NCBI GenBank assembly: GCA_021811185.1
Contig: JAJZPL010000001.1
Coordinates: forward strand, 1 to 64,000
Reading direction: 5' to 3'
Source: a bacterium
GTDB lineage: Bacteria > Elusimicrobiota > Elusimicrobia > Elusimicrobiales > UBA9959
Length of the DNA stretch: 64,000 bases
In this document: positions 1 to 19,335 of the stretch, piece after piece
Layout: the number at the start of each line of letters is the position of its first letter
How positions within the stretch are numbered: the stretch's first letter is position 1
The notes under the pieces: model-generated
Seen by the model: only the letters and a program-made list of their open reading frames with translations
Told to the model about the DNA's origin: nothing
Databases searched by the model: none
Program-made: the position numbers and the translations under genes

Positions 1-176
1 CGAAGGGCCTGTATAAAAAAGCCCGCCAGGGAAAAATAGTCAATTTTACCGGGGTCCATTCGCCTTACGAGGCGCCGGCCGCCCCGGACATAACGCTGCG
101 CACGGACAAACTAAGCGCTCCGGCCGCAGTCAGGATCGTAACCGGGTTCCTTAAAAAGAGAGGACTGCTGCCATGA
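1..176 (+). CDS. cysC: APS kinase (CysC), C-terminal fragment
   Basis: The first codon in frame begins at base 3 and the reading frame runs to a TGA at 174-176, giving the last 57 residues of a protein cut by the window start. The stretch KGLYKKARQGKIVNFTGV followed by SPYEAP and a final FLKKRGLLP is typical of the C-terminus of adenylylsulfate kinase, which phosphorylates APS to PAPS. It is not possible to tell whether it was part of a CysNC fusion. It overlaps the next gene by four bases (ATGA), so the two are probably translated together; PAPS supply next to sulfatase-fold genes may or may not be meaningful. Confidence 0.75.
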   Translation, partial: KGLYKKARQGKIVNFTGVHSPYEAPAAPDITLRTDKLSAPAAVRIVTGFLKKRGLLP

Positions 177-919
177 AGACCGCAAGATCGACCGAGTCTA
201 CTATCAGCCATTTTTCCAAGCGCGCCCGCGGCTACAACGCTTCCGCGCGCTGGGTGCGGGACGGCGCGCTCATCTCCAAGATCCGCAAAGCCGCCGGCCC
301 CCTGCGCGGCAAGGCGCTGCTCGACCTCGCCATCGGGACCGGGGCCATAGCCGGGGCTTTCAAGGGCCGGGCCGGGCTGGTGGTGGGGGTGGACAGCTGC
401 TCCGCCATGTCGGCCAGGGCCGCGGGCCGCGCGGACCTGCTGGTCTTTGCCCGCGGCGAGGAACTGCCTTTCCCCGGCGGCAGTTTCGACATCTGCACCT
501 GCAGGCAGGGCCTGCAGTTCATGGACCTCGCCGCCGCGCTGGCGGAGGTGCGGCGCGTGCTCAGGCCGGGCGGCAGGGCGGTTTTCTGCCACCTTACCTC
601 CTACGGCGGCGCGGACGACGGGCCCTCGTTCCTGATACAGAAGCTCCGGAACCCGGCCAGGAAAAATTTCTTCTCGCCCGGCGACCTGGCCGCCGCCGCG
701 AAAAAACATTTCTCCCGCGTAACGGCGCGTGAGCATATCACCCGCGAATCCGTGAATAACTGGATCTCCAACGGCGCTATCTCAGCCGCGGCGCAGAAGC
801 GCATTCTCGGGGTTTATAAGGACGCCGCTCCCGCTTTCGCCAGGACCCACCAGGTGGAGTTCAGGGGCGGAGAGGTCTTCGACTCGATGCGGATGGAAAT
901 AATCACGGCGGTAAGGTAG
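173..919 (+). CDS. Class I SAM-dependent methyltransferase
   Basis: A 248-residue soluble protein with a Rossmann methyltransferase core. Motif I is DLAIGTGAIAG at residues 51-61, the acidic ribose-binding residue is D74, and an LRPGGR turn follows near residue 127. The layout resembles UbiE/COQ5-type enzymes but the substrate cannot be read. Its last ~60 residues resemble the C-terminus of the methyltransferase half of the fusion at 5864-7807 (ES.. .WI..., then a DA/DAPA segment and a closing V/SVR), so the two are likely paralogs. It starts inside the stop of cysC and is followed after 8 bases by an exported phosphodiesterase-like gene. Confidence 0.8.
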   Translation: MKTARSTESTISHFSKRARGYNASARWVRDGALISKIRKAAGPLRGKALLDLAIGTGAIAGAFKGRAGLVVGVDSCSAMSARAAGRADLLVFARGEELPFPGGSFDICTCRQGLQFMDLAAALAEVRRVLRPGGRAVFCHLTSYGGADDGPSFLIQKLRNPARKNFFSPGDLAAAAKKHFSRVTAREHITRESVNNWISNGAISAAAQKRILGVYKDAAPAFARTHQVEFRGGEVFDSMRMEIITAVR

Positions 920-927
920 GCGACCAA

Positions 928-2907
928 ATGAACAACTCCCTGAGTTCCCGGTTCGGCAGGCTGCTTTGTCTGGTTCTGATAGCGTCGGCGTGGGGGTCAG
1001 CTTACTGCGCCGAAAAAGCGCCGGGCCTGTACTGGTTCGTGCCGGACGGCATGCGGGCCGATCTCGGCGGGAAGGACGTCTTCCAGCTTGCCGCCGAGGG
1101 CAAACTGCCTAACATCCGCAAGATGATGGAGAACGGTTCCTACGGTTATTCGGTGCCGGTCTATCCGTCCCATACCCCCGTCAATTTCGCTACGCTGATG
1201 ACCGGCTGCTACCCCGAGCTGCACGGCATCAGCGACGGGCAGATGCGCGTGGAAGGCTTCAGCCTGGCCAAGCCCTCCGTTTCCGGTTTTTCCTCCACCG
1301 CCAAGAAAGTCGCGCCCGCCTGGAAACTCTTTGAGGACGCGGGGCGCACCGTGGCCGTGGTTTCCGTGCCCGGTTCCACCCCCCCCGAGATGTCCTCCGG
1401 TATGACCATCCGCGGCCGCTGGGGCTCCTGGGGCTCCGATTTCTGGGCCGTCAATTACGAAGCTTCCCCCGACGTTAAACCCTCGGCCGGGAATTCCACG
1501 CGGCTCTTCTTCATGGGGCCGCAGCTGACGCAGCAGGTTAAGACCGCGCCGGCGCAGGGCTGGAAGAACGCGCCTGTCTCCTATTCCCCGCCCCTGGAGG
1601 CGGAACTTACCGCTTACGGGACCACGGTTTACGCCTACATCTACGACAGCACCGACGACAAGGCCGCGGACTATTCCGGCGTCCTGTTCTCTTTCGACAA
1701 GAGCTCCGCGATAGCCGACCTGGTAAAGCCGGGCTCCTGGAGCGGCTGGGTGCCTCTCAGCCTGACCTGGGGCGGCGAGCCGCTCGCGTCCAGCCTCAAG
1801 GTGTCGCTCATCAGCCTGAACCCCGCCGGCGGTATGAAGGCCCGGCTGCTGTTCGACCCGATGAACGCCACCACCGTGCAGCCTTCCGATTCCGTCCCCG
1901 GGATGGAAAAAGAACTGGGCCCGATGGTCGACTTCCCGGACAACTGGCCGGCCCAGCTGAACAATTCCCCCGAAGAAAAAGCAACGTTCTTCGCCGAGGC
2001 CAAGATGGCCCTGGACTGGCACAAGTCGCTGGTGCCTTTCATGTATTCCACTCTTAAGCCGGATATTTTCATCCAGGACACCTATACCCCCAACCAGATG
2101 CTGGAAAGCCGCTGGTGGCTGCCGTACGTTGACAAGAACAGCGCGCGCTACGCCGCCAGTACCCCCGAGGAGCGGGCGTCCGCCCTGGCCGACCTGGAGG
2201 AGATGTACCGGCGCCTGGACGCGGTGCTCGGCGAGGCGCTCAGGCACGCCGGGAAAGATTCCGTGATAGTGCTGAGCTCCGACCACGGCATCAACCCGCT
2301 CAACCGCTACGTGATGCTGAATAACCTGTTCGCCAGGGAAGGGCTGCTGAAGTTCAGCACCGACCCCGTGACCGGAGTGCCGGCCATGGACTGGGCCGGC
2401 ACGAAAGTCGCCCACCTTAAGATGATAGGCGTCTACCTGCGCCCCGACAGCCTCGCCGGGAAATGGCAGCGCGGTTCCGGCCCGGAGTACGACGCGCTGC
2501 TGGAGAAGGTCAAAACATTGCTGCTGGACCTGCGGGACGGGGAGACCGCTCCCATAGACCGCGTCGTCAAATGGATGGATGCTAAAGAGCTGAGGATGCC
2601 CAAGGAACGCATCCCGGACCTGCTGCTGGTAATGAAGCCGGGTTACGGCCTGACCGAGGATATGTCGCCCGGCCTGCCGGTGTTCCGCGACGCCCGGGAG
2701 GGAGGCTACAAGCAGGCCCTCCTGGCCGAGAAGAATCCCGCGCTCTGGACCCCGTTCGTAGTGATGGGGCCCGGAGTTAAAAAAGGCTACAGGCTGAAGA
2801 GCAACGTGAGCAACGCCGACCAGCTGCCCACCCTGCTGAAGCTTACCGGAGTCCCGGTCCCGGACTATATGCAGGGGAAGGTTATAAATGAACTCCTTGA
2901 AAAATAA
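928..2907 (+). CDS. Exported type I phosphodiesterase/nucleotide pyrophosphatase-family protein
   Basis: A 659-residue protein with an N-terminal signal peptide (hydrophobic residues 11-27). It belongs to the alkaline phosphatase superfamily: first metal-ligand region FVPDGMRAD with D40, a PSHTPVNFATLMTG segment whose T83 sits at the nucleophile position, and a late SSDHG metal motif. Such enzymes hydrolyse phosphodiester or phosphonate bonds outside the cytoplasm; the substrate is not identifiable. A middle insertion (roughly residues 150-330) is longer than in minimal members. The 3' end overlaps the next gene by 20 bases. Confidence 0.8.
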   Translation: MNNSLSSRFGRLLCLVLIASAWGSAYCAEKAPGLYWFVPDGMRADLGGKDVFQLAAEGKLPNIRKMMENGSYGYSVPVYPSHTPVNFATLMTGCYPELHGISDGQMRVEGFSLAKPSVSGFSSTAKKVAPAWKLFEDAGRTVAVVSVPGSTPPEMSSGMTIRGRWGSWGSDFWAVNYEASPDVKPSAGNSTRLFFMGPQLTQQVKTAPAQGWKNAPVSYSPPLEAELTAYGTTVYAYIYDSTDDKAADYSGVLFSFDKSSAIADLVKPGSWSGWVPLSLTWGGEPLASSLKVSLISLNPAGGMKARLLFDPMNATTVQPSDSVPGMEKELGPMVDFPDNWPAQLNNSPEEKATFFAEAKMALDWHKSLVPFMYSTLKPDIFIQDTYTPNQMLESRWWLPYVDKNSARYAASTPEERASALADLEEMYRRLDAVLGEALRHAGKDSVIVLSSDHGINPLNRYVMLNNLFAREGLLKFSTDPVTGVPAMDWAGTKVAHLKMIGVYLRPDSLAGKWQRGSGPEYDALLEKVKTLLLDLRDGETAPIDRVVKWMDAKELRMPKERIPDLLLVMKPGYGLTEDMSPGLPVFRDAREGGYKQALLAEKNPALWTPFVVMGPGVKKGYRLKSNVSNADQLPTLLKLTGVPVPDYMQGKVINELLEK

Positions 2908-3550
2908 AACAGCGCTGCTGGGGCTGCTGCTTGCCCTGGCGGGCGCGGCCGGCGCGGGCGCGCCGGTCCCGGCGCGGCCTTTCAGGGCCGCGCTTGCCGA
3001 AGCCGGCCTGGAGTACGCCGGGGCCAGGCCCTTCCTGGTAAGCAAGAATTATAAACGCGGCGACTGGAAAAGCCTGCCGCCGGCTTTCTGGACGCTAACC
3101 GCCTCCGACGGGGCCGTCAGGCTCCGCCTGGAAATGACCAAAAATATCGGTCCCGGGAAGGCCGGGAAGACCATGGCGCAGCGCTTCGCCAGGGTGGACG
3201 CGCTCTATGCCGGCGGCGCGGCTTACCCCGGCATGGTTACCACGGAATTCGAGGTGCCGCCGCAGCTGCGGCCTAAGGACCTCAGGACGGGGCCGGGCGA
3301 AAAAAAAGTAAAGGTGCTCGCCGCCACGGCGGGCCTGGCTTACGGCGCCGGTTCGGAGGACCTCGTAGCCTACAGGGGGCTTATGGGGTACGTTTATTGT
3401 GAAAAAAGCTCGCTGCTGGCGCAACTGGAGCTTTTTTTCCCGAAAGAAGGTTTCGATCAGGCGGCGGCTCTCAGGGAATTCGACGGGATCCGCTGCGCCG
3501 CGGCGCCGCAGGACGCCGTCAGCGTCAGCACCGCAATAAAAAATAGATAA
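2888..3550 (+). CDS. Exported protein of unknown function
   Basis: A 220-residue protein beginning with a lysine-containing n-region and a strongly hydrophobic, Ala/Leu/Gly-rich stretch to about residue 25, consistent with a Sec signal peptide. I do not recognise the mature domain. It overlaps the preceding phosphodiesterase-like gene by 20 bases in another frame, which indicates co-translation, so it may act with that exoenzyme. It ends 92 bases before the convergent radical SAM gene. Confidence 0.65.
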   Translation: MNSLKNKTALLGLLLALAGAAGAGAPVPARPFRAALAEAGLEYAGARPFLVSKNYKRGDWKSLPPAFWTLTASDGAVRLRLEMTKNIGPGKAGKTMAQRFARVDALYAGGAAYPGMVTTEFEVPPQLRPKDLRTGPGEKKVKVLAATAGLAYGAGSEDLVAYRGLMGYVYCEKSSLLAQLELFFPKEGFDQAAALREFDGIRCAAAPQDAVSVSTAIKNR

Positions 3551-3642: not shown

Positions 3643-5265
3643 TTACCGCGCCGGCGCTATCTTGATGCGCGGGCGCCGGACCTCCGCGGCGACCTTCTGG
3701 CTGGTGAGGCGGGGCAGCAGGAAACGTTCGGCGCCGGGCGCGAGGGGCGCGCCCGCGTAGCTGAACTTGCTCCGCCATTCTTTCCTGGGGTCGGGGTAGA
3801 AGCCGACGAAGTTCTCGGGCCAGTGCTTGAAGTCCATCACCGGGCCTTTGCAGTAAGAGTCGGAGATCCGCTGGTACGCCCGCCGCATGACCTTTTCGGG
3901 CAGGCCGTTGTAGTTCAGGAATTCGTCGTGGACCATGGCCTGCTCGGTGGACAGCCAGCGCAGGTGTTCCACTTCGCTCCGGATGATCCCGCGCTTGAGG
4001 CCGTCGGAATAAATGTTCGTTCCGGGCATGGCGGAAAGGTATTTTACGCGCGTGATGCTCTGGGTCTCTTCGGCCCATTCGCACAGGTGTTCGAGGGATT
4101 CCTCGGTCTCCCCGGGCAGCCCGACGATGGTGAGGCCGCCGAAAACTATGCCCGCGGCCTGCGTGTTCTTAACGGTGCGCAGGATCAGGTTCTCCGTATA
4201 ACCTTTTCTTGCCTCTTTCTGCACTTCGGGAGAGAGGGATTCCACGCCGAAAAGAATGATGTCGCAGCCCGCGGCCCTCATGGCCGCAAGCACTTCGGGG
4301 TCCGCGTCCGTGCAGCGCGTCATGCAGCCCCAATGGATCTTGAATTCCTTGATGGCCTCGCAGAGCTCCAGCGTGCGCCTTTTATCGGAGGTAAAGGTGA
4401 GGTCCGCGAACATGATGAAGTTCGTCTTGTACACCTCGGTGTAGACCTTAAGTTCGGCCCGCACTTTCTCTACGGATTTTTCCCGCAGCTGGGGCGTGGT
4501 GCGGTAGCAGAACGTGCAGTCCATTTTGCAGCCCCGGCTGTGGGAAGAGATGATCTGGGGCTGCAGCCCGAGCGGGCCCTTCGCCTGGGGCCACAGGGAG
4601 AGGTTCATGGCCGGAACGCTGTTCAGGTCCTTCATCTGGCCGCGGGGGGGCGTGTGCCGCAGCTCGCCGGCGGCCGTGCGGTACCAGAGGCCGTTGATCT
4701 TCGCCAGGCGTTCCTCGGGCCATTTGCCGTCCGCGAAGGCTTCCATCAGCTCCTGGATGGTGATTTCTGCTTCGCTGATGACCGAGATGTCGGCTTTCGT
4801 GTGGCTCATGAAAACGTGCGGAACGGAAGACACCAGGGACCCGCCCAGGATAACGGGCAGTTTCGGGTCCTTTTCTTTCAGCAGGGCCGTAAGTTCCTCT
4901 ACGAAGGGGTAATCGTCTTCGCCGGTATAGAGCATTGCCACGTCCGTGGCTTCCATTACCTGCCTGCAGGCTTCCTGCAGCGGGTCTACGGCATAACGGA
5001 CGTCCACGATCCGCACCGGGTACCCGGCGTTGTGGAGCACCGTGGAGATGACGCCGAGCCCTTCCTGCGGGGAAGTTATGAAAAACTCCCAGCCGCGCAT
5101 CATGCTGAAAGGTGAGGGGCCGAGCACGAGCGTGATCCGCGGCTTGTTCTTGTCGGTGGCGCAGGGCTTTTTGGCCTGCTCCGCCATCTGCCCCATATAA
5201 TGGGCGTCCGCCGGGGAGTCGGCCTGCGCGTAAAGTCCCGAATCTAGAGAGTGTTTGTCGGACAT
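3643..5265 (-). CDS. B12-binding-domain radical SAM protein
   Basis: A 540-residue protein. Residues ~45-180 look like a cobalamin-binding Rossmann domain (ITLVLGPSPFSMM, ILGGSLVSSVPHVF). A radical SAM core follows with the 4Fe-4S ligands C246, C250 and C253 in SRGCKMDCTFCY. Proteins of this build carry out methylations or rearrangements on unactivated carbons in lipid, cofactor and secondary metabolism; the substrate is unknown. It is a single-gene unit on the minus strand with a good candidate promoter (5348-5377) and is convergent with the gene pair on its left. Confidence 0.85.
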   Translation of the reverse strand: MSDKHSLDSGLYAQADSPADAHYMGQMAEQAKKPCATDKNKPRITLVLGPSPFSMMRGWEFFITSPQEGLGVISTVLHNAGYPVRIVDVRYAVDPLQEACRQVMEATDVAMLYTGEDDYPFVEELTALLKEKDPKLPVILGGSLVSSVPHVFMSHTKADISVISEAEITIQELMEAFADGKWPEERLAKINGLWYRTAAGELRHTPPRGQMKDLNSVPAMNLSLWPQAKGPLGLQPQIISSHSRGCKMDCTFCYRTTPQLREKSVEKVRAELKVYTEVYKTNFIMFADLTFTSDKRRTLELCEAIKEFKIHWGCMTRCTDADPEVLAAMRAAGCDIILFGVESLSPEVQKEARKGYTENLILRTVKNTQAAGIVFGGLTIVGLPGETEESLEHLCEWAEETQSITRVKYLSAMPGTNIYSDGLKRGIIRSEVEHLRWLSTEQAMVHDEFLNYNGLPEKVMRRAYQRISDSYCKGPVMDFKHWPENFVGFYPDPRKEWRSKFSYAGAPLAPGAERFLLPRLTSQKVAAEVRRPRIKIAPAR

Positions 5266-5451: not shown

Positions 5452-5871
5452 ATGAAAGCGCCAAAACTGGAAAATAGCCGGACCTTCAAGAACGTGCGTA
5501 TGGCCTTTGCCGATGAGGCCGAGCTCGTTTTTCGCTACCTCTACTGCGCCACGCTGGCGGAATTCGAAGGGCAGGAAAAGCACGCGGCGCTTTTCAGGGA
5601 ACTCGCGGAAGGCGGCGCTTGCGGCGTCCATGGCTGCCTCGATTTTTTGAAACTCGCCCAGGACCCGGATTCCGAGATCGCTTTCGGCGGCACGCTGAAG
5701 AACCTGGAGTCGCTGCTCCAGACCGAAACGCGGCAGCACGCCCAGACCTACCCCGAGATGGCGAAGGCCGCGCGCGAGGAAGGCCTCCCCGATATCGCGA
5801 GCTGGTTCGATACGCTGGAAAAAGCCAAGCGGGCCCACGCCCGCAGGCTTAAGGGGCTCGGCCATGAATAA
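5452..5871 (+). CDS. Rubrerythrin/ferritin-like protein with degenerate iron site
   Basis: A 139-residue all-helical protein aligning along its length with the ferritin-like domain of rubrerythrins, without the rubredoxin tail. Recognisable blocks are FRYLYCATLAEFEG, LFRELAEG, HGCLDFLK, AKAAREEG and DIASWFDTLEKAKRAH. Compared with the family pattern as I remember it, the ExxH of the second helix reads GACG, the ExxE of the third helix reads ETRQ, and the ExxxH of the fourth helix keeps H but has K for E. Oxidative or peroxidase chemistry at a di-iron centre is therefore doubtful. Its last 8 bases overlap the start of the GyrB-ATPase/methyltransferase gene, so the two are translationally coupled. 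No Shine-Dalgarno is seen; a TATCAT lies 9 bases before the ATG. Confidence 0.75.
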   Translation: MKAPKLENSRTFKNVRMAFADEAELVFRYLYCATLAEFEGQEKHAALFRELAEGGACGVHGCLDFLKLAQDPDSEIAFGGTLKNLESLLQTETRQHAQTYPEMAKAAREEGLPDIASWFDTLEKAKRAHARRLKGLGHE

Positions 5872-7807
5872 AAAATATTCCGTGCGCGACATCGTGGTCC
5901 TGTCGGGGCTCGAGGCCGTCAGGAAGAACCCTTGGATGTACGTCGGCTCCGTTTCCGAGACCGGCTACCATCAATTGCTCTGGGAACTGGTCTACAATTC
6001 CGTGGACGAGGCCCTCGCCGGCGCCTGTTCGAAGATCGGAGTGACCCTCGCGGACGACCACTGCGCGGTGGAAGACGACGGCCGGGGCATACCGACGGAA
6101 CTGCACCCGGGCGAAGGCGTTTCGGCCTGCGAAGTGGTGCTGACCAAACTCCACTCGGGCAGCAAATTCTCCAGGGCTTCCTACCGGTTCAGCGCCGGCC
6201 TTCACGGCCTCGGGCTTTCCTGCGTGAACGCCCTTTCGGAACGGCTCACGGTGGAGATCCGCCGCAACGGGACGCTGTATGCCCAGGAATACCGCCGCGG
6301 CGCGCCGAAACGGCCCCTGCGGGCGGCCGGCAAGACCGCAGGCCGCGGGACGCGGATCACGTTCTGGCCGGACAAGAAGATCTTCAAGACCTTCAGGGGG
6401 TTCAACGAGGCTCTCTGCGCGGAGTTCCTGGAAGAACTGTCCTTCCTGAACCCCGGCGTGGAATTCACGCTGGCCGGCGGCCGGAACGCCGCCCCCCGTT
6501 CGTTCAGGAACGGTTCCGGGATAGCGGGGCTCCTTTCCAGGCTGAACGCGGCGGCCCGTCCGCTTTTCGCGAAGCCGCTGGAAGTCCGGCTGGAGAACAA
6601 GACGCTTTGCTGCGGCGCGGTGCTGCAATGGACCACCGGCCGGGAGCCGCTGATCCGGTCTTACGTGAACTGCGTGAACACGGTGCACGGCGGCACGCAT
6701 GTTTCCGCTTTCCGCCGGGGCCTGACCCGCGCGATCAACCGGAGCATGACGGAAACCGGCAGGCTGGCCGGCGCCGGGGACGCGGCCGAGGCGGACGAGG
6801 TGGCCGAAGGCCTGACCGCCGTTATCGACCTTAAACTTGCGCATCCGAATTTCGAGGGCCAGATCAAAACGAGGCTTACCAACGCGGACGTCTCGGCTAC
6901 GATAGAGAACGCGGTCTGCGCCCAGGTCCTCGCCGCTCTGAAAAAAGACCCGAGGACCGCCGCGGTCATCGCGGACAAGATCCTGCAGGTGCGCAAAGCC
7001 CGGCTCGCGGCCAGGCGGGTGGCGGAAAAGATCTATTTCCAGCGCGTCGACCGGAACATCGACGAAGAGGTCTACAAGGAGCAATTCGGGGCCAGGTCCA
7101 GGAACTGGCACGACTCGGCCGTCTGGATCACCGACAAGGAACTGCTGAAAAAGCACGCCGGCCTTTTCAAGCCGGACCGGGACGCGGTGGCGCTCGACGT
7201 CTGCTGCGGGAGCGGCGTCGTGGGGGCCTCGTTCAGGGGCCGCGTGAAAAAGATCGTGGGCCTGGACCTGACGCCCGAGATGGTAAATTTGGCGAAGCAG
7301 CGGCTGGACGAGGTCCGGCAGGGGACCGTTTACGATCTCCCGTTCAAGGCCAATACGTTCGACCTCGTCTGCACGAGGGAAGTGCTGCACCTGCTGCCGT
7401 GGCCGGAGAAGCCGGTTTCGGAGATCTTCCGCGTGATGAAGCCCGGCGCCCAGTTCATAGTGGGGCAGATCCTGCCCTACGGCGCCGCCGACGGGCCGTG
7501 GATGTACCGCGTTTTCAAGAAGAAGCAGCCCCTGATCTTCAACATGTTCCAGGAGGAGGATTTTAAACGCCTCCTGACGGACGCCGGGTTCGTGGACCTG
7601 GAAATGAAAGAGCTCCGCGTCTGGGAGTCCATCGACGTCTGGATCGACAGTTTTGAGACCACCAGCCTGCACCGCCACGAGATACGGCAGCTGTTCCGCG
7701 ACGCCCCGGCCGAGGCCAGGGCGGTCCACCCGTTCAAGATCTCCCCGTCGGGCGAGATACATGACCTTTGGAGATGGTGCGTTTTTTCGGTGAGAAAGCC
7801 GCTTTGA
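5864..7807 (+). CDS. GyrB-type GHKL ATPase/transducer fused to SAM methyltransferase
   Basis: A 647-residue fusion. Residues 1-395 match the N-terminal half of DNA gyrase B/ParE: GLEAVRKNPWMYVGS start block, ATPase N-box with E41 and N45 (ELVYNSVDEALAG), DDGRGIP at 71-77, ATP-lid region GLHGLGLSCVNALS from 112, the transducer HGGTHVSAFRRGLTRAIN from 275, and the switch lysine K335 in EGQIKTRL. The catalytic Glu and switch Lys are thus present. Where gyrase has its TOPRIM domain the protein instead has, from about residue 436, a class I methyltransferase (motif I ALDVCCGSGVVG 443-454, D468). No TOPRIM or tail is encoded, so it cannot be a topoisomerase. ATP-driven dimer clamping coupled to methylation is an inference. 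One uninterrupted frame; no sign of a frameshift artefact. Confidence 0.9.
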   Translation: MNKKYSVRDIVVLSGLEAVRKNPWMYVGSVSETGYHQLLWELVYNSVDEALAGACSKIGVTLADDHCAVEDDGRGIPTELHPGEGVSACEVVLTKLHSGSKFSRASYRFSAGLHGLGLSCVNALSERLTVEIRRNGTLYAQEYRRGAPKRPLRAAGKTAGRGTRITFWPDKKIFKTFRGFNEALCAEFLEELSFLNPGVEFTLAGGRNAAPRSFRNGSGIAGLLSRLNAAARPLFAKPLEVRLENKTLCCGAVLQWTTGREPLIRSYVNCVNTVHGGTHVSAFRRGLTRAINRSMTETGRLAGAGDAAEADEVAEGLTAVIDLKLAHPNFEGQIKTRLTNADVSATIENAVCAQVLAALKKDPRTAAVIADKILQVRKARLAARRVAEKIYFQRVDRNIDEEVYKEQFGARSRNWHDSAVWITDKELLKKHAGLFKPDRDAVALDVCCGSGVVGASFRGRVKKIVGLDLTPEMVNLAKQRLDEVRQGTVYDLPFKANTFDLVCTREVLHLLPWPEKPVSEIFRVMKPGAQFIVGQILPYGAADGPWMYRVFKKKQPLIFNMFQEEDFKRLLTDAGFVDLEMKELRVWESIDVWIDSFETTSLHRHEIRQLFRDAPAEARAVHPFKISPSGEIHDLWRWCVFSVRKPL

Positions 7808-7867: not shown

Positions 7868-9055
7868 TCAGTATTTGGATTTCCAGACGTCGTCTTTTTC
7901 GGTGAGGTTCAGGTTCTTCAGCGCGGCGTAGACCAGGCTGTTGTCCACGAAGTTCTCTATCTTCACGTCGTTCCTGCCGATAAAATCGTATTTAACCAGC
8001 AGGTTTTTCACATCATACAGCAGGCCGGTCCCTACGGCCGGGACCAGGTCGTACTGCGGGTAGTTCAGGCCGTTCAGGTTCATTGCCATCTGCAGGCCCT
8101 TGTCCTGCACCTTGGTCCGCTCCTCGTAGCTGAGCCCGTGCTCGTATTTGACCCGCTCGATGTAAACCTCCAGCAGTTTTGTGAGTTCCGGGCGGTTGGC
8201 CTGCAGGTAGCCGGTGGTGCAGACCAGCAGCGCCTGGGAGAGTTCCGGGTTAGCGAATTCGTCCATGGACTTGATGACGTTGAATTCCCCCGCTTTTTTG
8301 GGGACGCCCATAAGGTGGAAATAGCCGCCGTCTATAACGCCGTTCTTCGCTCCCACTTTCATGTCGTCCTCGAAAACGTCCTCGGCGATCAATACTTTGC
8401 CGCGGGGCAGGCGCCTCTTCTCCGCCAGGGTCTTTGGCAGGGACTTGAGGAAGACGGCCTGGGTTTTAAGGTTAATGCCGGCCTGCCGCAGATATTCCCT
8501 TAAAAAAATGGCGTCTCCGGGGCCGGCCCGGCGCGAGACCACTATCTTGCCGAAATAATCCCCCGGCCTGGCGGTTCTCAAGCCTTTGCGCATCAGGAAG
8601 ACGTGCCCGGCCTGGCCTTTCACGTCGTGGCCCAGCTCGGCTATGGCCACGATGGGCTTGCCGGAATAGATGGAGTAGATGAACGAGGACTCGCCTACCA
8701 TGGCCAGGTCGAACTTGCCGGCCAGCATATCGTCGATAAGCTCGGTGCCCTTCGTTTTCCCTACGTTATCCGTGCCGCCCTCGTTGAACTCCTCTATGGA
8801 CCTGGGGACGATCTCATAATCCTTGCCCCGCAGCGGCGCGGCGTAGTACTCCACGTTAAGCCCGCGCTTCTCGAAAGCGTCGGTCTCGTAGGCGCGCAGC
8901 AGCAGAGCGGTGCGGCCGCCGTGGAAGTAGCCGACCCTGATGGGCCGGGCGGCGGGGGCCGTGGAAAGTTCGACGTCCGCGGCCCGGCATGGAGAATTGG
9001 CCAGCAGGAGCAGGCCGGGCAGGAGCAGGTTAAGGCAGTTTTTTTTCTTTGTCAT
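7868..9055 (-). CDS. ABC-transporter substrate-binding protein, NMT1/SsuA-like
   Basis: A 395-residue exported protein with a signal peptide (residues ~8-26, ending in CRAAD). The mature part has the periplasmic-binding fold of nitrate/sulfonate/taurine or thiamine-precursor binding proteins: an early GYFHGGRTALL strand-loop, YETDAFEKRGLNVEYY, a central FDLAMVGESSFIYS segment and AIAELGHD. No permease or ATPase gene lies nearby, so it is either an orphan receptor or partners a transporter elsewhere. Its start overlaps the end of the sulfatase-fold gene upstream (9030-10493) by 26 bases, tying it to the product of those exoenzymes. Confidence 0.8.
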   Translation of the reverse strand: MTKKKNCLNLLLPGLLLLANSPCRAADVELSTAPAARPIRVGYFHGGRTALLLRAYETDAFEKRGLNVEYYAAPLRGKDYEIVPRSIEEFNEGGTDNVGKTKGTELIDDMLAGKFDLAMVGESSFIYSIYSGKPIVAIAELGHDVKGQAGHVFLMRKGLRTARPGDYFGKIVVSRRAGPGDAIFLREYLRQAGINLKTQAVFLKSLPKTLAEKRRLPRGKVLIAEDVFEDDMKVGAKNGVIDGGYFHLMGVPKKAGEFNVIKSMDEFANPELSQALLVCTTGYLQANRPELTKLLEVYIERVKYEHGLSYEERTKVQDKGLQMAMNLNGLNYPQYDLVPAVGTGLLYDVKNLLVKYDFIGRNDVKIENFVDNSLVYAALKNLNLTEKDDVWKSKY

Positions 9056-10493
9056 TTTCTACGGTCCAGGCTTCCAGCAGGGGCCTTAATGCTTCAACCA
9101 TCTCAGGCTTCCGGCTGGTCAGGTCATTCTGCTCCGAGGGGTCGGTCCCCAGGTCGTATAATTCCGTTTTGGCGGGGGCGTCTTTGCTCTTTTCGGTAAA
9201 GATAAGTTTCCAGTCCTTCTCCCTGACGGACCGAAGGGTCAGGCCATACCCCTGGGTTTCGGAGAAGACGGGGCGGACGCCTCCGCTGAAACCTTCGCTG
9301 CTTTGTGCTCCGGATATGAGGCCTACCAGGCTTTTGCCGCTGATGCCGGGAGTTCTTGGCGCCTTTGCCAGGTCCAGGAGCGTGGGCATCAGGTCCACCA
9401 GCTCCACCGGCTGGTCTATCACCGGGGCGGCGGCCTTAAGCCATTTTCCGGGGATGGAGATTATCAGCGGCACATGGACCAGTTCCTGGTAGAGCCGGGG
9501 CGGGTTGGTGCAGTGCAGCACTCCGCCGTGGTCGCCAAGGCCCTCGCCGTGGTCCGCCATCACCACGATGACGGTGTCTTCGGGGGCGGACTTGCGCGCC
9601 CGTTCTATTATTTCGCCCACGAACTTGTCGGCGTAGTCGAGAGAAGCGTCGTAGCGCGCCGCGATATACTCCATGTCCGCCGGCCCAAGGCGCATAGGCG
9701 GTTTATTCGAAGCGGGCTGCGCCCCGCCGGGGCCGCCGTGCTCAGCGGAACCCTCCGGCGAGAAACTCCAGCCTCCGCCGTCTTTCCGTATGGTCGAAAG
9801 GACGTCCCGGGAGAGCCAGGTCGAAGCCAGCGCGCCTTTGTAGTCCCCCGCGTACTTCTTAACGAAACTCTCCGGAGCGCGGTAAGGCCGGTGCAGTTCG
9901 CTGGAATGAAGGAGGAGGAAAAAAGGCTTTGTTCTGTCGGCGGCCATCCACTTGTAAGCTTCGGGCAGAAAAGCTGGGAAGGATTTTACCGGGCTGCCCC
10001 TGTCGCTGCTCCTGTTGCGGTAATTGCGGTACAGGTCGAAGCCGTGGTCGAAGCCGTAGTCCGGCCCGTTGAAGCGCCCGGTGAAAAAACCTGCCGTGCG
10101 GTAACCGGCTTTTTTTAGCGCCTCGGGCAGGGTTATCTCGTTCCGGCCCAGCGGGAGATCCGGGTAGTCGAAGCCGCTTACTCCCTTCCCTGGCCCTAAC
10201 ATGCCGAGCGCCCGGGGATATTTGCCGGTAAGGAAGGAGGCGAAAGAAAGCAGGGTCCAATTGCTCTGGGAGCAGGCGGACCTGAACAGTACGCCGCTCC
10301 TGGACAGTTTGTCGATGTTGGGGGTAGTCGGGCGCTTGTAGCCGTAGGCGGAAACATGGTCGGCCCTGAGCGTGTCTATCACGATCATCAGGATGTTGGG
10401 CCTGGCGGGCGCGGCGTCCCCGGCGGCAAAGGCGGCCGCCTGAAGGAGGTTCAGCGCGAGCGCGGCGGCCAGGGTGAGTTTTGTCCTTTTCAC
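9030..10493 (-). CDS. Exported sulfatase-fold hydrolase (Thr nucleophile position)
   Basis: A 487-residue protein starting with GTG, three bases after the stop of the preceding gene. A signal peptide precedes a complete sulfatase (PF00884-type) domain: MIVIDTLRADH with metal ligand D40, a nucleophile region SQSNWTLLSFASFLTG in which T80 takes the place of the Cys/Ser that is converted to formylglycine in true sulfatases, and an intact MADHGEGLGDHGG metal motif. All metal ligands seem present, so it is probably an active phospho- or sulfo-ester hydrolase or transferase, but not a formylglycine sulfatase. Middle gene of a three-gene minus-strand operon. Confidence 0.85.
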   Translation of the reverse strand: MKRTKLTLAAALALNLLQAAAFAAGDAAPARPNILMIVIDTLRADHVSAYGYKRPTTPNIDKLSRSGVLFRSACSQSNWTLLSFASFLTGKYPRALGMLGPGKGVSGFDYPDLPLGRNEITLPEALKKAGYRTAGFFTGRFNGPDYGFDHGFDLYRNYRNRSSDRGSPVKSFPAFLPEAYKWMAADRTKPFFLLLHSSELHRPYRAPESFVKKYAGDYKGALASTWLSRDVLSTIRKDGGGWSFSPEGSAEHGGPGGAQPASNKPPMRLGPADMEYIAARYDASLDYADKFVGEIIERARKSAPEDTVIVVMADHGEGLGDHGGVLHCTNPPRLYQELVHVPLIISIPGKWLKAAAPVIDQPVELVDLMPTLLDLAKAPRTPGISGKSLVGLISGAQSSEGFSGGVRPVFSETQGYGLTLRSVREKDWKLIFTEKSKDAPAKTELYDLGTDPSEQNDLTSRKPEMVEALRPLLEAWTVENDKEKKLP

Positions 10494-10496
10494 GGT

Positions 10497-11534
10497 TTAT
10501 TTTTCGAACAGGGGTCTGCCGTCAAGGGCCGGTTTTATTTTTTTCAGGTCCAGGCCGCAGCTTTCCAGGATGGTCGGGGTGATATCCTTCCTGTCTCCGT
10601 CCTTGAGCTTGCGCTTATTGTTCGTGGCGAGGAAAGTTTCGGGCGCCGAGAAATGCTCGAAGCCGCCCTCCTGGAAGCCGTGGTCGGTGGTCACGTAAAT
10701 CGTGGTCTTTTCGGAGAGCCCGAGGGCCGCGAGTTTTTTAACTATCTCGCCGAGCCAGTGGTCCGCCGTTATCAGGCCTTCGCTGTATTCCTTTGAATTC
10801 TCACCGTACAGGTGGCCCTGCTCGTCCGGTTCCTCGAAGTGAAAAAAAGCGACGAACGGTTTCCCGGCGCAGGCGTCCAGGGCCGCCAGCGCCCTCTCTC
10901 CCACTTTCGCGGCGGGCCCGAGGCCGCTGGCGTATAGGTCGACGTGTTCCCGGGTGAGGAAATAGGGCTCGCCGGCGCGGCTGACCCAGGCCGGGGGCTT
11001 GCCGTCCCTGGTCTTTGCGGTGGTGACCTCCTTGTCCGACCACCATTTCGTCTTGGCCCTGGTGACGGAGTCGCGGGAAATGCAGTTTTTGCAGATCTCG
11101 TGCGGGCCCCTGGCGCCCAGGTTGTTGATCTTGCCCGTCAGGAAAACGGCGGCGATGTTGCCGGCGCCGAAGCGCGTTTTAAGCCTTTCGAACACCGTGT
11201 AGCCGGCGGGGATGGGTTTGTAGTTCCGGTTCCCGCGTATGCCCAGGCGCGGCGCGCTGTAGCCGGTAAGGATCTCGGTCCAGCCGGGCTTGGTCTGGGT
11301 TTCCCCCGTGGTTACTTCGGTGAGGACCAGACTGCCTTCCCCGGCCAGTTTCCGCAGGTTCGGGAGCTTGCCGGCGGCCAGAAGTTCCAGCACATGGTCC
11401 CTTTGAGCGCCGTCCCAGCCCACCAGTACCACGTTCCCGGCTACCGCGGGCAGCGGCGCACGCTGCGGCGCCGCGCCGGCAAGCGGCAGGGTCAGGGCGA
11501 GGAAAAAGGTTATTTTATGGCTCGTGTTCTTCAT
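10497..11534 (-). CDS. Exported alkaline-phosphatase-superfamily phosphodiesterase
   Basis: A 345-residue protein with a signal peptide and a compact alkaline-phosphatase-superfamily domain. VVLVGWDGAQRDHV carries the first metal ligand, TKPGWTEILTG has Thr at the nucleophile position, FHFEEPDEQGH and VTTDHGFQEGGF give the remaining metal ligands. It resembles the type I phosphodiesterase/phosphopentomutase side of the superfamily more than the sulfatase-fold neighbours. It is first in the minus-strand operon 11534 to 7868. Substrate unknown. Confidence 0.8.
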   Translation of the reverse strand: MKNTSHKITFFLALTLPLAGAAPQRAPLPAVAGNVVLVGWDGAQRDHVLELLAAGKLPNLRKLAGEGSLVLTEVTTGETQTKPGWTEILTGYSAPRLGIRGNRNYKPIPAGYTVFERLKTRFGAGNIAAVFLTGKINNLGARGPHEICKNCISRDSVTRAKTKWWSDKEVTTAKTRDGKPPAWVSRAGEPYFLTREHVDLYASGLGPAAKVGERALAALDACAGKPFVAFFHFEEPDEQGHLYGENSKEYSEGLITADHWLGEIVKKLAALGLSEKTTIYVTTDHGFQEGGFEHFSAPETFLATNNKRKLKDGDRKDITPTILESCGLDLKKIKPALDGRPLFEK

Positions 11535-11583
11535 GGCGATCCTTATATAATATCATACAATATCAGCAGGCCCGGCCTTCTCC

Positions 11584-13122
11584 ATGCCGCTTGGCCGCAC
11601 CCTGAATATGCCTAAAAGATCATTTTTCCCGATGTTCAAAGTCCTGCTGCTGGCCGCGCTGCTGCCGGGCGCGGCGCGCGCCGCGGGCCCTTCCCTGGCC
11701 GGACGCTACAAAGGCTACAACCTGCTGGTGGTCTCCATAACGAATATAGGCACCGACCACATGAGCCTTTACGGTTACGGCCGGAAGACTACGCCGAACC
11801 TGGATAAGTGGGCGGCCGGAGCCCTGGTGTTCGAGGACGCCTATACGCCGGCTTCCTGGACCCTGCCCGCGGCCACCTCGCTGCTGACCTCGCTGTCTCC
11901 CAACGCCCACCAGATCATGGGAAGGAACCGGGACGTGCTGCTTTCCCATAAAATAAAAACCCTGGAGGAGATCCTTAACGCCTCCGGGTACAGGACCGCC
12001 GCCTTCACCGGCGGGCTGGACTATATGCCGTCGCTGGGGCATATGCGCGGGTTCGGGACCGCGCCAGACAACGCCCCTTTTACCAGGTTCGACGTTACCA
12101 TCCCGCAGGCCGAGGGCTGGCTGGCGAAGAATAAAAACAGGAAATTTTTCCTGCTGGTGCACGGCTACGACGCCCACCCGCCCTTTCTTCCCTCAAGGTT
12201 CGAAGGGGTGTACAGCAGTACCGCCGGGCGCAGCGTTACGGTGGACCCCACACGCACCTACCGGGGCTACCGGGAAAGCAAGGACGCGAACATAACCGCC
12301 TATTACCATGAACCGCGGCCGTCGCCGGGTGTGGGCGAAAAAAAACGGGTGTCGGAATCCGTCACCATCCTGACTCCGGACGATGTGAATTACCTGCGGG
12401 ACCTTTACGACGAAAGGATACTTGACGAGGACAGCCGGGTGGGGGAGTTCCTCGCCTCGCTGGACAAGGCTTTGCTGGAGAAGACCATCGTGGTAGTGCT
12501 GTCCGAGCACGGCGAGATGTTCGCCAAGCACGGCCGCTTCGGGAGGGCCGGCGGGATACGGGGCACCCTCTTTGACGACGTGGTCCACGTCCCGCTGCTT
12601 GTCCGGCTGCCCGGCGAGCCGGGGCGGCGCGTCCGGGGCCTGGTCCAGATCGAGGACATTATGCCTACGCTGCTGGAATTGCTGGCGGTCCGCGGCCCGG
12701 CGAAGGTCCAGGGCTCTAGCCTGCTGCCGCTGGTAAGCACGGGGACGGCGGTGAACCAGTACGTATATGGGGGCACCCGGTACAATACTTACATGCCGGA
12801 GACCTACGGTCCCTACGGCATTGCCAGCGTCAACGAATATATACGCGACTATAACTGGAAACTGATACACGAGGTGACCTTCCCCGACGGCAAAAGGAAG
12901 AAGGCGGGGGACGCAGAAGAAACGTTCGAGCTTTACGACTTAAAGAACGATCCCGCCGAAGCCGTGAACGTGGCGGCCGCCAATCCCGGGGTGGTCAAGG
13001 ACCTGGCTCAAAAACTGCGCCAGTGGGTGGAAACGTCCAAAAAGTTCAACAGGGCCGGCACTTCCACCCGGGCGATCCCGAAAGAAGTGCTGGAGAAGGC
13101 TAAACAGCACGGATATTGGTAG
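11584..13122 (+). CDS. Sulfatase-fold protein, likely inactive
   Basis: A 512-residue protein; the start at 11584 is tentative because ATGs at 11608 and 11632 also precede the signal peptide and none has a clear ribosome site. The fold is that of the neighbouring sulfatases (YGYGRKTTPNLDKW, SWTLPAATSLLTS with T93), but the first metal ligand position is Thr (T53 in VVSITNIGTDH, where active members have ID/WD), and the DHGE motif is SEHGE. With one metal ligand lost and one conservatively changed, catalysis is doubtful. The C-terminal tail ends in LEKAKQHGYW, a tail shared with two other paralogs here. Confidence 0.8.
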   Translation: MPLGRTLNMPKRSFFPMFKVLLLAALLPGAARAAGPSLAGRYKGYNLLVVSITNIGTDHMSLYGYGRKTTPNLDKWAAGALVFEDAYTPASWTLPAATSLLTSLSPNAHQIMGRNRDVLLSHKIKTLEEILNASGYRTAAFTGGLDYMPSLGHMRGFGTAPDNAPFTRFDVTIPQAEGWLAKNKNRKFFLLVHGYDAHPPFLPSRFEGVYSSTAGRSVTVDPTRTYRGYRESKDANITAYYHEPRPSPGVGEKKRVSESVTILTPDDVNYLRDLYDERILDEDSRVGEFLASLDKALLEKTIVVVLSEHGEMFAKHGRFGRAGGIRGTLFDDVVHVPLLVRLPGEPGRRVRGLVQIEDIMPTLLELLAVRGPAKVQGSSLLPLVSTGTAVNQYVYGGTRYNTYMPETYGPYGIASVNEYIRDYNWKLIHEVTFPDGKRKKAGDAEETFELYDLKNDPAEAVNVAAANPGVVKDLAQKLRQWVETSKKFNRAGTSTRAIPKEVLEKAKQHGYW

Positions 13123-13141
13123 ATCCCCGGCGTCGTCGCGC

Positions 13142-14467
13142 TCAGGGGACCGGGGTCAGGGCGTCTTCCTGGTCCGAGAGCTCCATCTCGAGGACATAGG
13201 ACCTTGCGGGATCTTCTTCCGCGAGGTCTTTCTTTTCCCGCGCGTCGGCCGCGGTATCGTAAAGCTCCCTGCCCTGGGTAAAGCCGTCCTCGATAAGCTT
13301 CAGCCCGCCGCTTTTGCGTATAGCCCTCTTGCTGAAATGGAACAGATAGTCGGTTTCGGAGAAAGCCGTGCGCGCGCCCTTTTCCCCGGCCATATAACCC
13401 GCCAGGCTCGTTCCGCGCAGCTGTCCCTTCAGGCTGTCCGGCGGCTTGATGCCCAGCAGGTCGAGGACGGTGGGAAAAATGTCCAGGGTCCTGACCTGCC
13501 CTTTAATTACCCGGCCCCGGCGGCCCGGCACGCGGATAATGAGCGGAACGTGGATCATTTCGTCGTAAAGCGTCATGCCGTGGTCTACCCCGCCGTGGTC
13601 GAAAAGCTCCTCGCCATGGTCCGCAACGACGATGATCACCGTGTTCTCCGCGGTCTTCCCCCGGGCGGCCAGGTTTTTAAGGAATTCCCCGAGCAGCCTG
13701 TCCGTGCGCAGGATCTTTTCGTCGTAGACGTCGGTCCAGAGCCTGACGTCGGCGTCCGTGTGTTCCGGTTTCTTCCCGTCCAGCAGGTCCAGCCGCATTT
13801 TTTCATGGCGGGCCTTTATCCCCGCCGCGGCCTGCGCCTCGTCCTGCCCTATGAAACTGTATTTCCCGTCCATCACGAGGTTGTGGAACGGGTGGGTGTC
13901 GTAGCCGTGCACGAAAAGGAAGAAGGGCTTGTCCCCGTTCTTCTTAAGCCAGGCCAGCGCCTCGGGGAACGTGGTCCCGAAGCCGGCGAAGTTGCGGCTG
14001 TCCGCGTACACGTCGAAACCGCGGCTGAAGCCGTATTCGCCGCCCACGCCTGCCCCGCCGGTGAAGGCCGCGGTGCTGTATCCGCGGGCTTTCAGCGCCT
14101 CCGCCAGCGTTACCGCGCCGGTGGAAAGGGAAACGGGGAGGAGCTCGGAACTTCCCGGGGTTATCCGGAACTTGTTGGTCACCTGGTGTTCCGAAGGGTA
14201 AAGCGAGGTGAAGATCGACATGAAAGCGGGCAGGGTCCAGCTGGCCTGGCTGACGGCGTCCGTGAAAAGGAAGGCCCCGCCGGCGAAGGCGTCCATGTTG
14301 GGAGTGGTCTTGCGGGCGTAGCCCAGCGCGCTTACGTGGTCCGCGCGCAGCGTGTCCCAGCCGATAATGATCAGGTTCTTCCTGGCGCCGGCATAAAGCG
14401 GGGCGGTCAGCAGTAAAAAAGCCGCTGCGGCGGAAGCGGAAGCCGGCTTGAGAAAGGCAAGTTTCAT
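13142..14467 (-). CDS. Exported sulfatase-fold hydrolase (Thr nucleophile position)
   Basis: A 441-residue protein with a signal peptide. The metal ligands look complete: IIIGWDTLRADH with D38, and VVADHGEELFDHGG. The nucleophile region SQASWTLPAFMSIFTS has T78 at the position used by formylglycine in classical sulfatases. It lies 13 bases downstream of the asparagine-synthetase-like gene on the same strand, so the two are probably one transcript, and it is convergent with the inactive-looking paralog at 11584. Confidence 0.85.
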   Translation of the reverse strand: MKLAFLKPASASAAAAFLLLTAPLYAGARKNLIIIGWDTLRADHVSALGYARKTTPNMDAFAGGAFLFTDAVSQASWTLPAFMSIFTSLYPSEHQVTNKFRITPGSSELLPVSLSTGAVTLAEALKARGYSTAAFTGGAGVGGEYGFSRGFDVYADSRNFAGFGTTFPEALAWLKKNGDKPFFLFVHGYDTHPFHNLVMDGKYSFIGQDEAQAAAGIKARHEKMRLDLLDGKKPEHTDADVRLWTDVYDEKILRTDRLLGEFLKNLAARGKTAENTVIIVVADHGEELFDHGGVDHGMTLYDEMIHVPLIIRVPGRRGRVIKGQVRTLDIFPTVLDLLGIKPPDSLKGQLRGTSLAGYMAGEKGARTAFSETDYLFHFSKRAIRKSGGLKLIEDGFTQGRELYDTAADAREKKDLAEEDPARSYVLEMELSDQEDALTPVP

Positions 14468-14480
14468 GGTTTATCCGTTC

Positions 14481-16289
14481 TTATAGGTTGTTCTTCAGCC
14501 ATAGTTCCAGGTTAACGAATCTCCACAGCCCGGAAATATCCGTGGTCTCCGGCGACACCGCGGCGGCGAAAAGTTCGTCGAAATGCCGCAGCACGGCTTT
14601 CTGGTCCAGGAAGCCGGCCGAATAAAATTTGCGGCCCCCCAGGACCGCTTTAAGCTCGCCCTTGTTCCTTTTTAAAAAATCTTTCCAGGCCGCGATGGGA
14701 ACGGTGCCGCCTATCTTCTTCTTTCTCCAGCAGACGCTCTTGGGCAGAATGCCGTCCAGCGAAGTTCTTAACAGGTATTTAGTCCAGGGGTTATGGAGCT
14801 TGTAGCAGAGCGGCAAAGAAAGCGCGTAGTCGACCAGGCGGTGGTCAAGCAAGGGCCGGCGGCGCGTGAGGGCGTAATCGGTATGGAATTCGCCGCTGAG
14901 GCTTAGTGTGTCCCGGTGGAGAACTCTCTGCAGGTTCAGTTCGGGGATGGCGGTCGGGGGCGTTTCACGGTGCCGGAAGTCCCGGTAGAAGTCCCGGGCA
15001 AGGACTTCCCGCGGGAAAAGCGGCGATAACTGCGGGGAGGTGGACTGGGTTTTAAGGAAGATCCTGTAAAATCCGGCCTGGTTCTTTTTGGTTATACCGA
15101 ATTCCCTGAGCCGGCCGGCGTGCAGCGATTTGAACTCTTTAAGAAAACCGGGGAGGTTCCCGCCGCGTATAAGCTGGTTGAGGTAGATCGCGAAATATCT
15201 TTCGGGGTACCCGGCCAGCAGTTCGTCGCCTCCTTCGCCGTCGAACAGCGCGCGCAGTTTTTCTTTTTTAGCCCTTTTGAGGATCGCCAGTTCCCCGAAG
15301 AAAGGGGTCATGTGCATCGGCCGTTCCGCGGCCGCGGCCGCCGCGGCCGTCTCCTTCCAGGTCAGGCGGCGGACTTCCGAAGGCGGGATCAGGCAATGGG
15401 GGGAGCGCGCCGTCCTGGAGACCGCTTTAATATATTTATATTCGCCTTCCCAGAGGATGCTGAGGATCTTAAATTTACCCGGGCCGCCGCGGTCGGCAAG
15501 GCAGGTGACGCTGGAGGAATCCAGCCCCCCGGAAAGCATGGTGCCTATCGGGTGCGGCGGCTTCGACCTTATCCTGACGGAATCGTCCAGCAGCCGCAGG
15601 AATTCCGCGGAATATTCCTTGAGCCGCTTTTTGTCGAATTTGCCCATTTCCGGATTATAGCTGGGCTCGTAATATCTCCTGACGGCCGGCTTCCCGCCGG
15701 CCCCGAGCGTCAGCGAATTCCCGGCTTCCAGCTGTTTTATTCCCCTGATAAAAGTCCTGTTCCCGGCGTTGGCGCGGTTGAGGACCAGGTAATCGAAGAC
15801 AACCTCCGCGTCCGGCTCCTTTTTTATGAAAGGGCAGGCCGAGAAAGCCTTTATCCTCGAGCTGAAAACGAAAACGCCGCCGCCGAAAAAATAATAAAAA
15901 GGTTTCAGGCCCAGCCTGTCGCGGGAACAGAAAAGGCGCCGCTCCCCTGCGTCCCACAGGGCGAAGGCCCATTGCCCGTTGAACCTGCGCTGGCAGCCGG
16001 CGCCCCACCTGGCGTAGGCGTGGATCACAAGCTCACTGTCGAGCGTGGAGGTGAATTTGCGGCCGGCCTTTTCCAGTTCGGACCTTAATTCGGTGTAATT
16101 GTAGATCTCGCCGGAGTAAGCGACGCTCGTCTTTTCAGCGGAGAACAGCGAGCCCGCGTCCGCGCATTTGAAGACGGGGCCGCTGCCGGCGCGGGGCGGG
16201 CCGCTCAGGCCCAGTTTCCTCAGCCGTTCGCCGGCGAGGCGGCCGACAGGTCTGCCGGGCGGTTTTAAAGCGTAAGTTCCGAAGATCAT
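14481..16289 (-). CDS. Asparagine-synthetase-like amide ligase lacking the N-terminal Cys
   Basis: A 602-residue protein with the AsnB architecture: a class II glutamine-amidotransferase-like N-terminal domain (SGEIYNYTELR, FNGQWAFALWD, CSRDRLGLKPFYY) and a synthetase domain with the ATP pyrophosphatase loop MLSGGLDSSS at 251-260. Real glutaminase domains begin Met-Cys-Gly; this one begins MIFGTYA, so the cysteine nucleophile is missing and glutamine hydrolysis should not occur. Related ligases without this Cys include beta-lactam synthetase and lasso peptide cyclases; using ammonia or an internal amine is therefore possible. It is the first gene of a two-gene unit with a sulfatase-fold gene, suggesting a modification step on a small molecule or surface polymer. 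Confidence 0.85.
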   Translation of the reverse strand: MIFGTYALKPPGRPVGRLAGERLRKLGLSGPPRAGSGPVFKCADAGSLFSAEKTSVAYSGEIYNYTELRSELEKAGRKFTSTLDSELVIHAYARWGAGCQRRFNGQWAFALWDAGERRLFCSRDRLGLKPFYYFFGGGVFVFSSRIKAFSACPFIKKEPDAEVVFDYLVLNRANAGNRTFIRGIKQLEAGNSLTLGAGGKPAVRRYYEPSYNPEMGKFDKKRLKEYSAEFLRLLDDSVRIRSKPPHPIGTMLSGGLDSSSVTCLADRGGPGKFKILSILWEGEYKYIKAVSRTARSPHCLIPPSEVRRLTWKETAAAAAAAERPMHMTPFFGELAILKRAKKEKLRALFDGEGGDELLAGYPERYFAIYLNQLIRGGNLPGFLKEFKSLHAGRLREFGITKKNQAGFYRIFLKTQSTSPQLSPLFPREVLARDFYRDFRHRETPPTAIPELNLQRVLHRDTLSLSGEFHTDYALTRRRPLLDHRLVDYALSLPLCYKLHNPWTKYLLRTSLDGILPKSVCWRKKKIGGTVPIAAWKDFLKRNKGELKAVLGGRKFYSAGFLDQKAVLRHFDELFAAAVSPETTDISGLWRFVNLELWLKNNL

Positions 16290-16441
16290 AGATCGTTGTG
16301 TGCGCCCGCGGCTGGTAAGACCGGCTCTGGCGCCGGCGGCCCTTATGCTGCGCGTGGGGAATAAAGTAGTATAATTATTTGATTGTAGTATAACGAAGCC
16401 GGCCAGTACAAATAGGCGCCGGCCGGACGGACGGTGTACCT

Positions 16442-17878: not shown

Positions 17879-17924
17879 CCGCCGGATAGAACTTATGCTG
17901 AAAGGAGCGGGGAGCGCTTTACAG

Positions 17925-19301: not shown

Positions 19302-19335
19302 GGCAAGGGCGGGCCGGCCCCGGCGGCTCAACGCT

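Follow-up and report, generated by a model that had tools for sequence, protein, structure and literature searches.

A gyrase B-type ATPase and transducer fused to a class I methyltransferase within a conserved bacterial gene cluster

GHKL clamps drive DNA, chromatin and chaperone work, and in MutL, Hsp90, MORC and SMCHD1 a GHKL dimer gated by ATP powers the effector domain joined to it. Kinases are also found among the GHKL folds, and the ATPase of GyrB is well established as a target of antibiotics. A study of S. pneumoniae ParE found the cavity residues K291, R321, K346 and R353 to be crucial for DNA strand passage and R321 for DNA capture, and matched K291 to a GyrB residue (PMC6030046). 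Within the 64,000-nucleotide stretch of bacterial DNA analysed here (the window; Table 1), one gene, A, encodes the ATPase and transducer of a GyrB joined to a methyltransferase, and this fusion protein is real and conserved.

The reading frame of gene A opens with ATG and runs through 647 codons without an internal stop. A first-pass annotation had recognized in its product a complete GyrB ATPase and transducer, and alignment with E. coli GyrB confirms this: E41 corresponds to E42, N45 to N46, D71 of the DDGRGIP box to D73, and K335 to K337. The same annotation had placed the departure from the gyrase pattern where TOPRIM should start, in agreement with the NCBIfam GyrB models, which cover residues 2-389 and end at the TOPRIM boundary, and with the absence of TOPRIM motifs (EGDSA, DxDxDG) from all 28 aligned fusions under conditions where the E. 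coli GyrB control was positive. Beyond that point it had named a class I methyltransferase with an intact SAM motif, and there Pfam detects Methyltransf_11 (residues 444-533, E 1e-19). Pfam further detects HATPase_c (32-171) and DNA_gyraseB (219-388, E 3e-35), and residues 2-388 match GyrB 43-kDa fragments in the PDB with an E value of about 1e-86, a similarity that chance does not explain. The full-length model of A has a pLDDT of 74, and its residues 1-388 superpose on E. coli GyrB43 (4wub) with a target TM of 0.94. The predicted junction is poorly modelled (pLDDT 31-49 over approximately 386-421), so the model does not define how the two domains are placed relative to each other.

Table 1. 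Features of the fusion locus; positions are those of the window
Feature	Position	Strand	Basis or remark
Gene A, GyrB ATPase-transducer/methyltransferase fusion, 647 aa	5864..7807	+	ORF, Pfam, NCBIfam, PDB matches
GHKL ATPase domain of A with N-terminal dimerisation arm, residues 1-218	5864..6517	+	E41, N45, D71, G75, K101, T163 kept
Transducer domain of A, residues 219-388, with Q333 and switch lysine K335 (codon 6866-6868)	6518..7027	+	
Junction of A, residues 389-403: end of transducer helix and linker; point where TOPRIM starts in GyrB	7028..7072	+	
Class I methyltransferase domain of A, residues 404-647, SAM motif LDVCCGSGVVG at 444-454	7073..7804	+	
Gene B, rubrerythrin-like, di-iron ligands lost	5452..5871	+	8-base overlap with start of gene A
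Gene C, B12-binding radical SAM protein, conserved cluster member	3643..5265	-	
Gene D, stand-alone methyltransferase, 28% identical to methyltransferase half of A	173..919	+	
Gene J, type I phosphodiesterase-fold protein; near the fusion also in L035 and L037	928..2907	+	
Gene K, 220 aa, family unassigned, accompanies J	2888..3550	+	
Gene H, 3' end (CysNC, sulfate adenylyltransferase subunit 1/APS kinase)	3..173	+	contig starts here

Thirteen positions of the ATP machinery are invariant in all 28 fusions: E42, N46, E50, D73, G77, K103, G114, H116, G117, G119, T165, Q335 and K337 (E. coli numbering), among them the catalytic Glu42 and the switch Lys337. Each of the 28 therefore carries the GHKL ATP site, GxHGxG included, and the transducer K337 that mark a type IIA topoisomerase. 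The dimer-arm residues Y26 and I10 are also kept, with valine in place of I10 in a few fusions, and R136 of E. coli GyrB (EcGyrB) is retained in most.

A Rossmann fold and SAM motif I, supported by Pfam, a high-confidence model and fold matches, assign the second half of A to the class I methyltransferases, and the LDVCCGSGVVG motif was found in the fusions; the domain is predicted to transfer a methyl group from SAM. A model of the methyltransferase alone, built with 30 relatives, has a pLDDT of 95. Its best fold matches are YcgJ and BH2331 (Z about 26), followed at lower Z by a broad set that includes natural-product, lipid, phosphoethanolamine and other methyltransferases; the substrate cannot be told from the fold by itself.

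The same fusion turned up at 55-100% identity in 14 loci, and another lineage contributed 19 more. It is present in more than 30 genomes of several bacterial lineages, nearly always within one gene cluster. A scan of genome contigs detected full-length relatives (55-86% identity) in MAGs that carry, as deposited, the labels Elusimicrobia, Wallbacteria, Bacteriovorax, Desulfobulbaceae and uncultured proteobacterium, and a phylum-wide search added two more loci, L071 and L072. In the "uncultured proteobacterium" lineage (G306), the methyltransferase half occurs in 23 of 379 genomes at 58-72% identity, and the GyrB half directly adjoins it in 19 of the 20 regions retrieved; in the twentieth, L109, the contig end cuts the fusion and an apparent transducer tail remains. 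The first-pass annotation had asked whether the halves might always be separate genes in homologs, pointing to an assembly error here, and their fusion in more than 30 loci answers in the negative. Among plasmid records, none covers the fusion and only GyrB-like matches were obtained. A Streptomyces plasmid (L081, 11962-13152) encodes a GyrB ATPase-transducer protein that stands alone and lacks TOPRIM, in an unrelated gene neighbourhood.

The source genome, an Elusimicrobia-type draft of 3.09 Mb, also has a complete GyrB, encoded separately on a different contig. A normal GyrB is also encoded by the fusion-host genomes checked, none being listed for the draft of G307, a MAG labelled Wallbacteria. 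Since the checked hosts keep their normal GyrB, replacement of the host gyrase by the fusion was rejected.

Phylogenetic analysis places the GyrB halves in one clade (100/99) among GyrBs and outside those of Elusimicrobia, and the methyltransferase halves in one clade (100/100). As each half forms one clade, a single fusion event inherited as a unit is most likely. The nearest kin of the fused methyltransferase is the first member of a tandem stand-alone pair in the clusters L063 and L085 (91/86), which contain neither a GyrB half nor gene B. Between distant lineages, identity is 35-47% for the fused GyrB half, 52-56% for the host GyrB and 69-73% for the methyltransferase half, so that the fused GyrB half diverges faster than the hosts' own GyrB. 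Selection thus acts most strongly on the methyltransferase, and inside the GyrB half on the ATP machinery.

Genes E, F, G, I and H lie on contig C45, whose end shares an overlap of exactly 127 bases with the beginning of the window, giving the joined gene order E-F-G-I-H-D-J-K-C(reverse)-B-A in the source genome. E and G belong to the sulfotransferase family, I (CysD) and H (CysNC) serve PAPS synthesis, and F is DDAH-like, with Cys and His kept in the PDB alignment. B, C, D, E, F, G, I and H are the recurring neighbours of the fusion, to which subsets of loci add J, K, TPR or sulfatase-fold proteins. PAPS synthesis, two sulfotransferases, the DDAH-like protein, the B12-radical SAM protein and a second methyltransferase are encoded together in many loci with enough sequence, and the second lineage shows the order G-E-F-S-C-B-A in L118 and L119, where S is a sulfatase-fold protein. 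The composition of this conserved cluster points to small-molecule metabolism. Clusters without the GyrB half and B occur in L063, L076 and L085. In G307, A and B stand alone on one contig (L039), and a GyrB-less MT-MT-E-F cluster (MT, methyltransferase) lies on another (L085), indicating that the fusion need not adjoin its pathway genes. In L109 the fusion is followed by a tandem second methyltransferase; the presence of both weakens the idea that the clamp simply replaces the second member of the tandem pair.

Two other roles for the locus were considered. A RiPP precursor between C and B would have to fit a gap of about 30 bases in L036, leaving no conserved precursor open reading frame there, and a PADLOC search for defence systems returned only generic methyltransferase and radical-SAM matches, which does not support a known anti-phage defence system.

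Several further features of the neighbourhood were observed. An array of six Sulfatase-family genes and a type I phosphodiesterase gene occupies 9030-20796 of the window, and relatives lie just upstream of C-B-A in about 10 loci of the second lineage. In the array members that were aligned, the nucleophile position lacks the CxPxR formylglycine motif and reads PWT or SWT in most; this suggests that they act as phosphodiesterases or transferases and not as classical sulfatases. An asparagine-synthase-type amidotransferase gene adjoining the array (14481-16289) is not conserved with the fusion cluster, and a pirin-family gene is found near the fusion in L110, L118 and L120 of the second lineage. 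A B12-radical-SAM gene and a small class I methyltransferase gene of one subfamily recur as neighbours in several Elusimicrobiota clusters (C and D of the window, L064-L068 and L076-L080), with or without sulfotransferases, suggesting that the pair may be a general two-enzyme module. In Bacteriovorax MAGs, C and D are fused into a single protein (L041, 6122-8536; L045, 6082-8535).

Gene B aligns over nearly its full length with the rubrerythrin structure 4di0 (E 2e-32), a sequence match that places it in the ferritin-like fold. In every one of the 32 B proteins the di-iron ligands E53, H56 and E126 have given way to other residues, leaving the six-ligand site incomplete, and a role as a diiron enzyme was rejected on the basis of this loss. 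The fusion has B as its neighbour in 32 loci that were aligned, L121 being a locus where B was not detected adjoining the fusion, and the ortholog of B was found only in genomes that carry the fusion. Three genomes with GyrB-less clusters lack it, encoding ordinary rubrerythrin-like proteins or none.

We propose, with about even confidence, that A is a methyltransferase in the pathway of a putative sulfated small molecule, and that a gyrase-derived ATP clamp, with B as obligate partner, dimerises and gates it. In this model, a dedicated cluster would produce a methylated, sulfated small molecule, with A as a biosynthetic methyltransferase. On binding ATP, two GyrB halves would close on each other and dimerise, the way GyrB does, and the transducer helices would position both methyltransferase domains at the place of TOPRIM, where ATP binding and hydrolysis could open and close the methyltransferase pair or control substrate access. 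The rubrerythrin-fold protein B, devoid of its metal ligands, would bind A as a subunit that the clamp cannot do without. Competence for ATP hydrolysis and dimerisation is suggested by the conserved residues, and the nature of the product by the gene context.

One alternative connects the GyrB half with self-immunity or sensing, in that the cluster product would inhibit GyrB and the GyrB half would act as a decoy through which the methyltransferase inactivates or finishes that product. Such a role would fit a long-standing antibiotic target encoded within a metabolite-type cluster, and the ATP-site residues used by aminocoumarins are retained (D73, G77 and T165 throughout, R136 in most). We nevertheless consider it improbable, given that E42, Q335 and K337, which serve hydrolysis and clamp closure and not drug binding, are invariant in 28 of 28 fusions, that the GyrB half is one old clade that lies outside the host GyrBs and does not track them, that the related clusters L063, L076 and L085 lack a GyrB half, and that the methyltransferase of A groups with pathway enzymes.

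Two-step fusions are common in biosynthesis, and A could be a bifunctional enzyme of this type, in which the GyrB half itself catalyses a reaction on a pathway intermediate, such as its ATP-dependent phosphorylation or activation. The invariant ATP site and the existence of GHKL kinases are compatible with this possibility. However, the fusions keep the transducer in full along with the QTK switch loop, Y26 and I10 (V in a few), all needless for a small-molecule kinase, and no substrate pocket besides the ATP site was identified, making a catalytic GyrB half doubtful.

The first-pass annotation had instead suggested a clamp that grips DNA, RNA or protein while the methyltransferase modifies the bound target. 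By numbering, ParE K291 and R321 would correspond to EcGyrB R286 and R316. The R286 position is basic in most fusions (E, H, L or F in some), and the fusion transducers are slightly more basic overall. Yet R316, the likely counterpart of the ParE capture residue, is kept in only 3 of 28 fusions and K304 and R389 in none, so that positions basic in nearly all GyrBs vary here; the K339 position, R in most, is L, S or T in others. The basic character of R286, R316 and K339 is thus not conserved as a set. The methyltransferase half, for its part, shows no [D/N]PPY or other form of motif IV ([D/N/S]PP[Y/F/W/H]) and no C5 motif (PC..ENV) in any of the 28 fusions, and its relatives are stand-alone enzymes of the metabolic cluster. 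The varying capture residues make contact of the fusion with DNA unlikely, though the slightly more basic transducers leave it some probability. The clamp machinery is intact and a protein target is conceivable, but the suggestion of a DNA-, RNA- or protein-modifying clamp is not supported, and we regard it as quite unlikely. The remaining explanation, that A is an assembly chimera or a pseudogene, is already refuted by the recurrence of the fusion in more than 30 loci from many assemblies and by the single clade that each half forms, even though every source is a draft assembly and, among the homologs, L040 is interrupted by one in-frame stop.

If the proposal of an ATP-gated pathway methyltransferase is correct, the type IIA topoisomerase clamp can be separated from DNA and made to govern a step of biosynthesis, which would explain the purpose of the strict ATPase conservation in the fusion: the motor end of a DNA enzyme has seemingly been recruited into metabolism. 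As the GyrB half keeps the novobiocin-type drug site, the clamp idea can be tested directly with existing inhibitors. The fusion also marks an undescribed cluster for a putative sulfated metabolite in uncultured lineages. More tentatively, and at somewhat less than even confidence, we suggest that an ATP-gated small-molecule methyltransferase with a metal-free rubrerythrin-fold partner may represent a new class of metabolic enzyme, part of an undescribed B12-radical-SAM/sulfotransferase pathway in several phyla; were ATP gating of a small-molecule methyltransferase demonstrated, the fusion might prove categorically new.

The order of domains had been put forward at first pass as undescribed, and in the openly available papers that were searched, we likewise found neither the fusion nor the cluster described. 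The closest known protein is the E. coli GyrB 43-kDa fragment (PDB 4wub, 1ei1), which residues 1-388 of A resemble in fold, ATP site, QTK switch loop and N-terminal arm (TM 0.94, about 40% identity). In contrast with GyrB, A has neither TOPRIM nor the C-terminal domain, has lost several conserved basic residues, has a methyltransferase where GyrB has its DNA-cleavage part, and coexists with a normal GyrB in its host. PDB 3cwv and the Streptomyces plasmid "ATP-binding protein" WP_331746379.1 share with A a GyrB ATPase-transducer without TOPRIM, but have no methyltransferase, occur in a different gene context, and are far more diverged or fall outside the fusion clade. Residues 396-647 resemble the YcgJ/BH2331-type methyltransferases (1xxl, 1vl5) in fold (Z 26, 19-24% identity) and SAM motif I, whereas YcgJ, BH2331, RebM, AtmM and MitM are all stand-alone and none has an ATPase. 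Gene B compares over nearly its whole length with sulerythrin and the Burkholderia rubrerythrin (1j30, 4di0), differing from them at the E53, H56 and E126 positions described above. MutL, Hsp90, MORC and SMCHD1 belong to separate GHKL branches and act on DNA, chromatin or clients, while A joins a type IIA topoisomerase-derived clamp to an effector of the small-molecule methyltransferase type. The parts of A thus belong to known families, and their combination and its metabolic-cluster setting are new, an arrangement of the GHKL-clamp-plus-effector kind.
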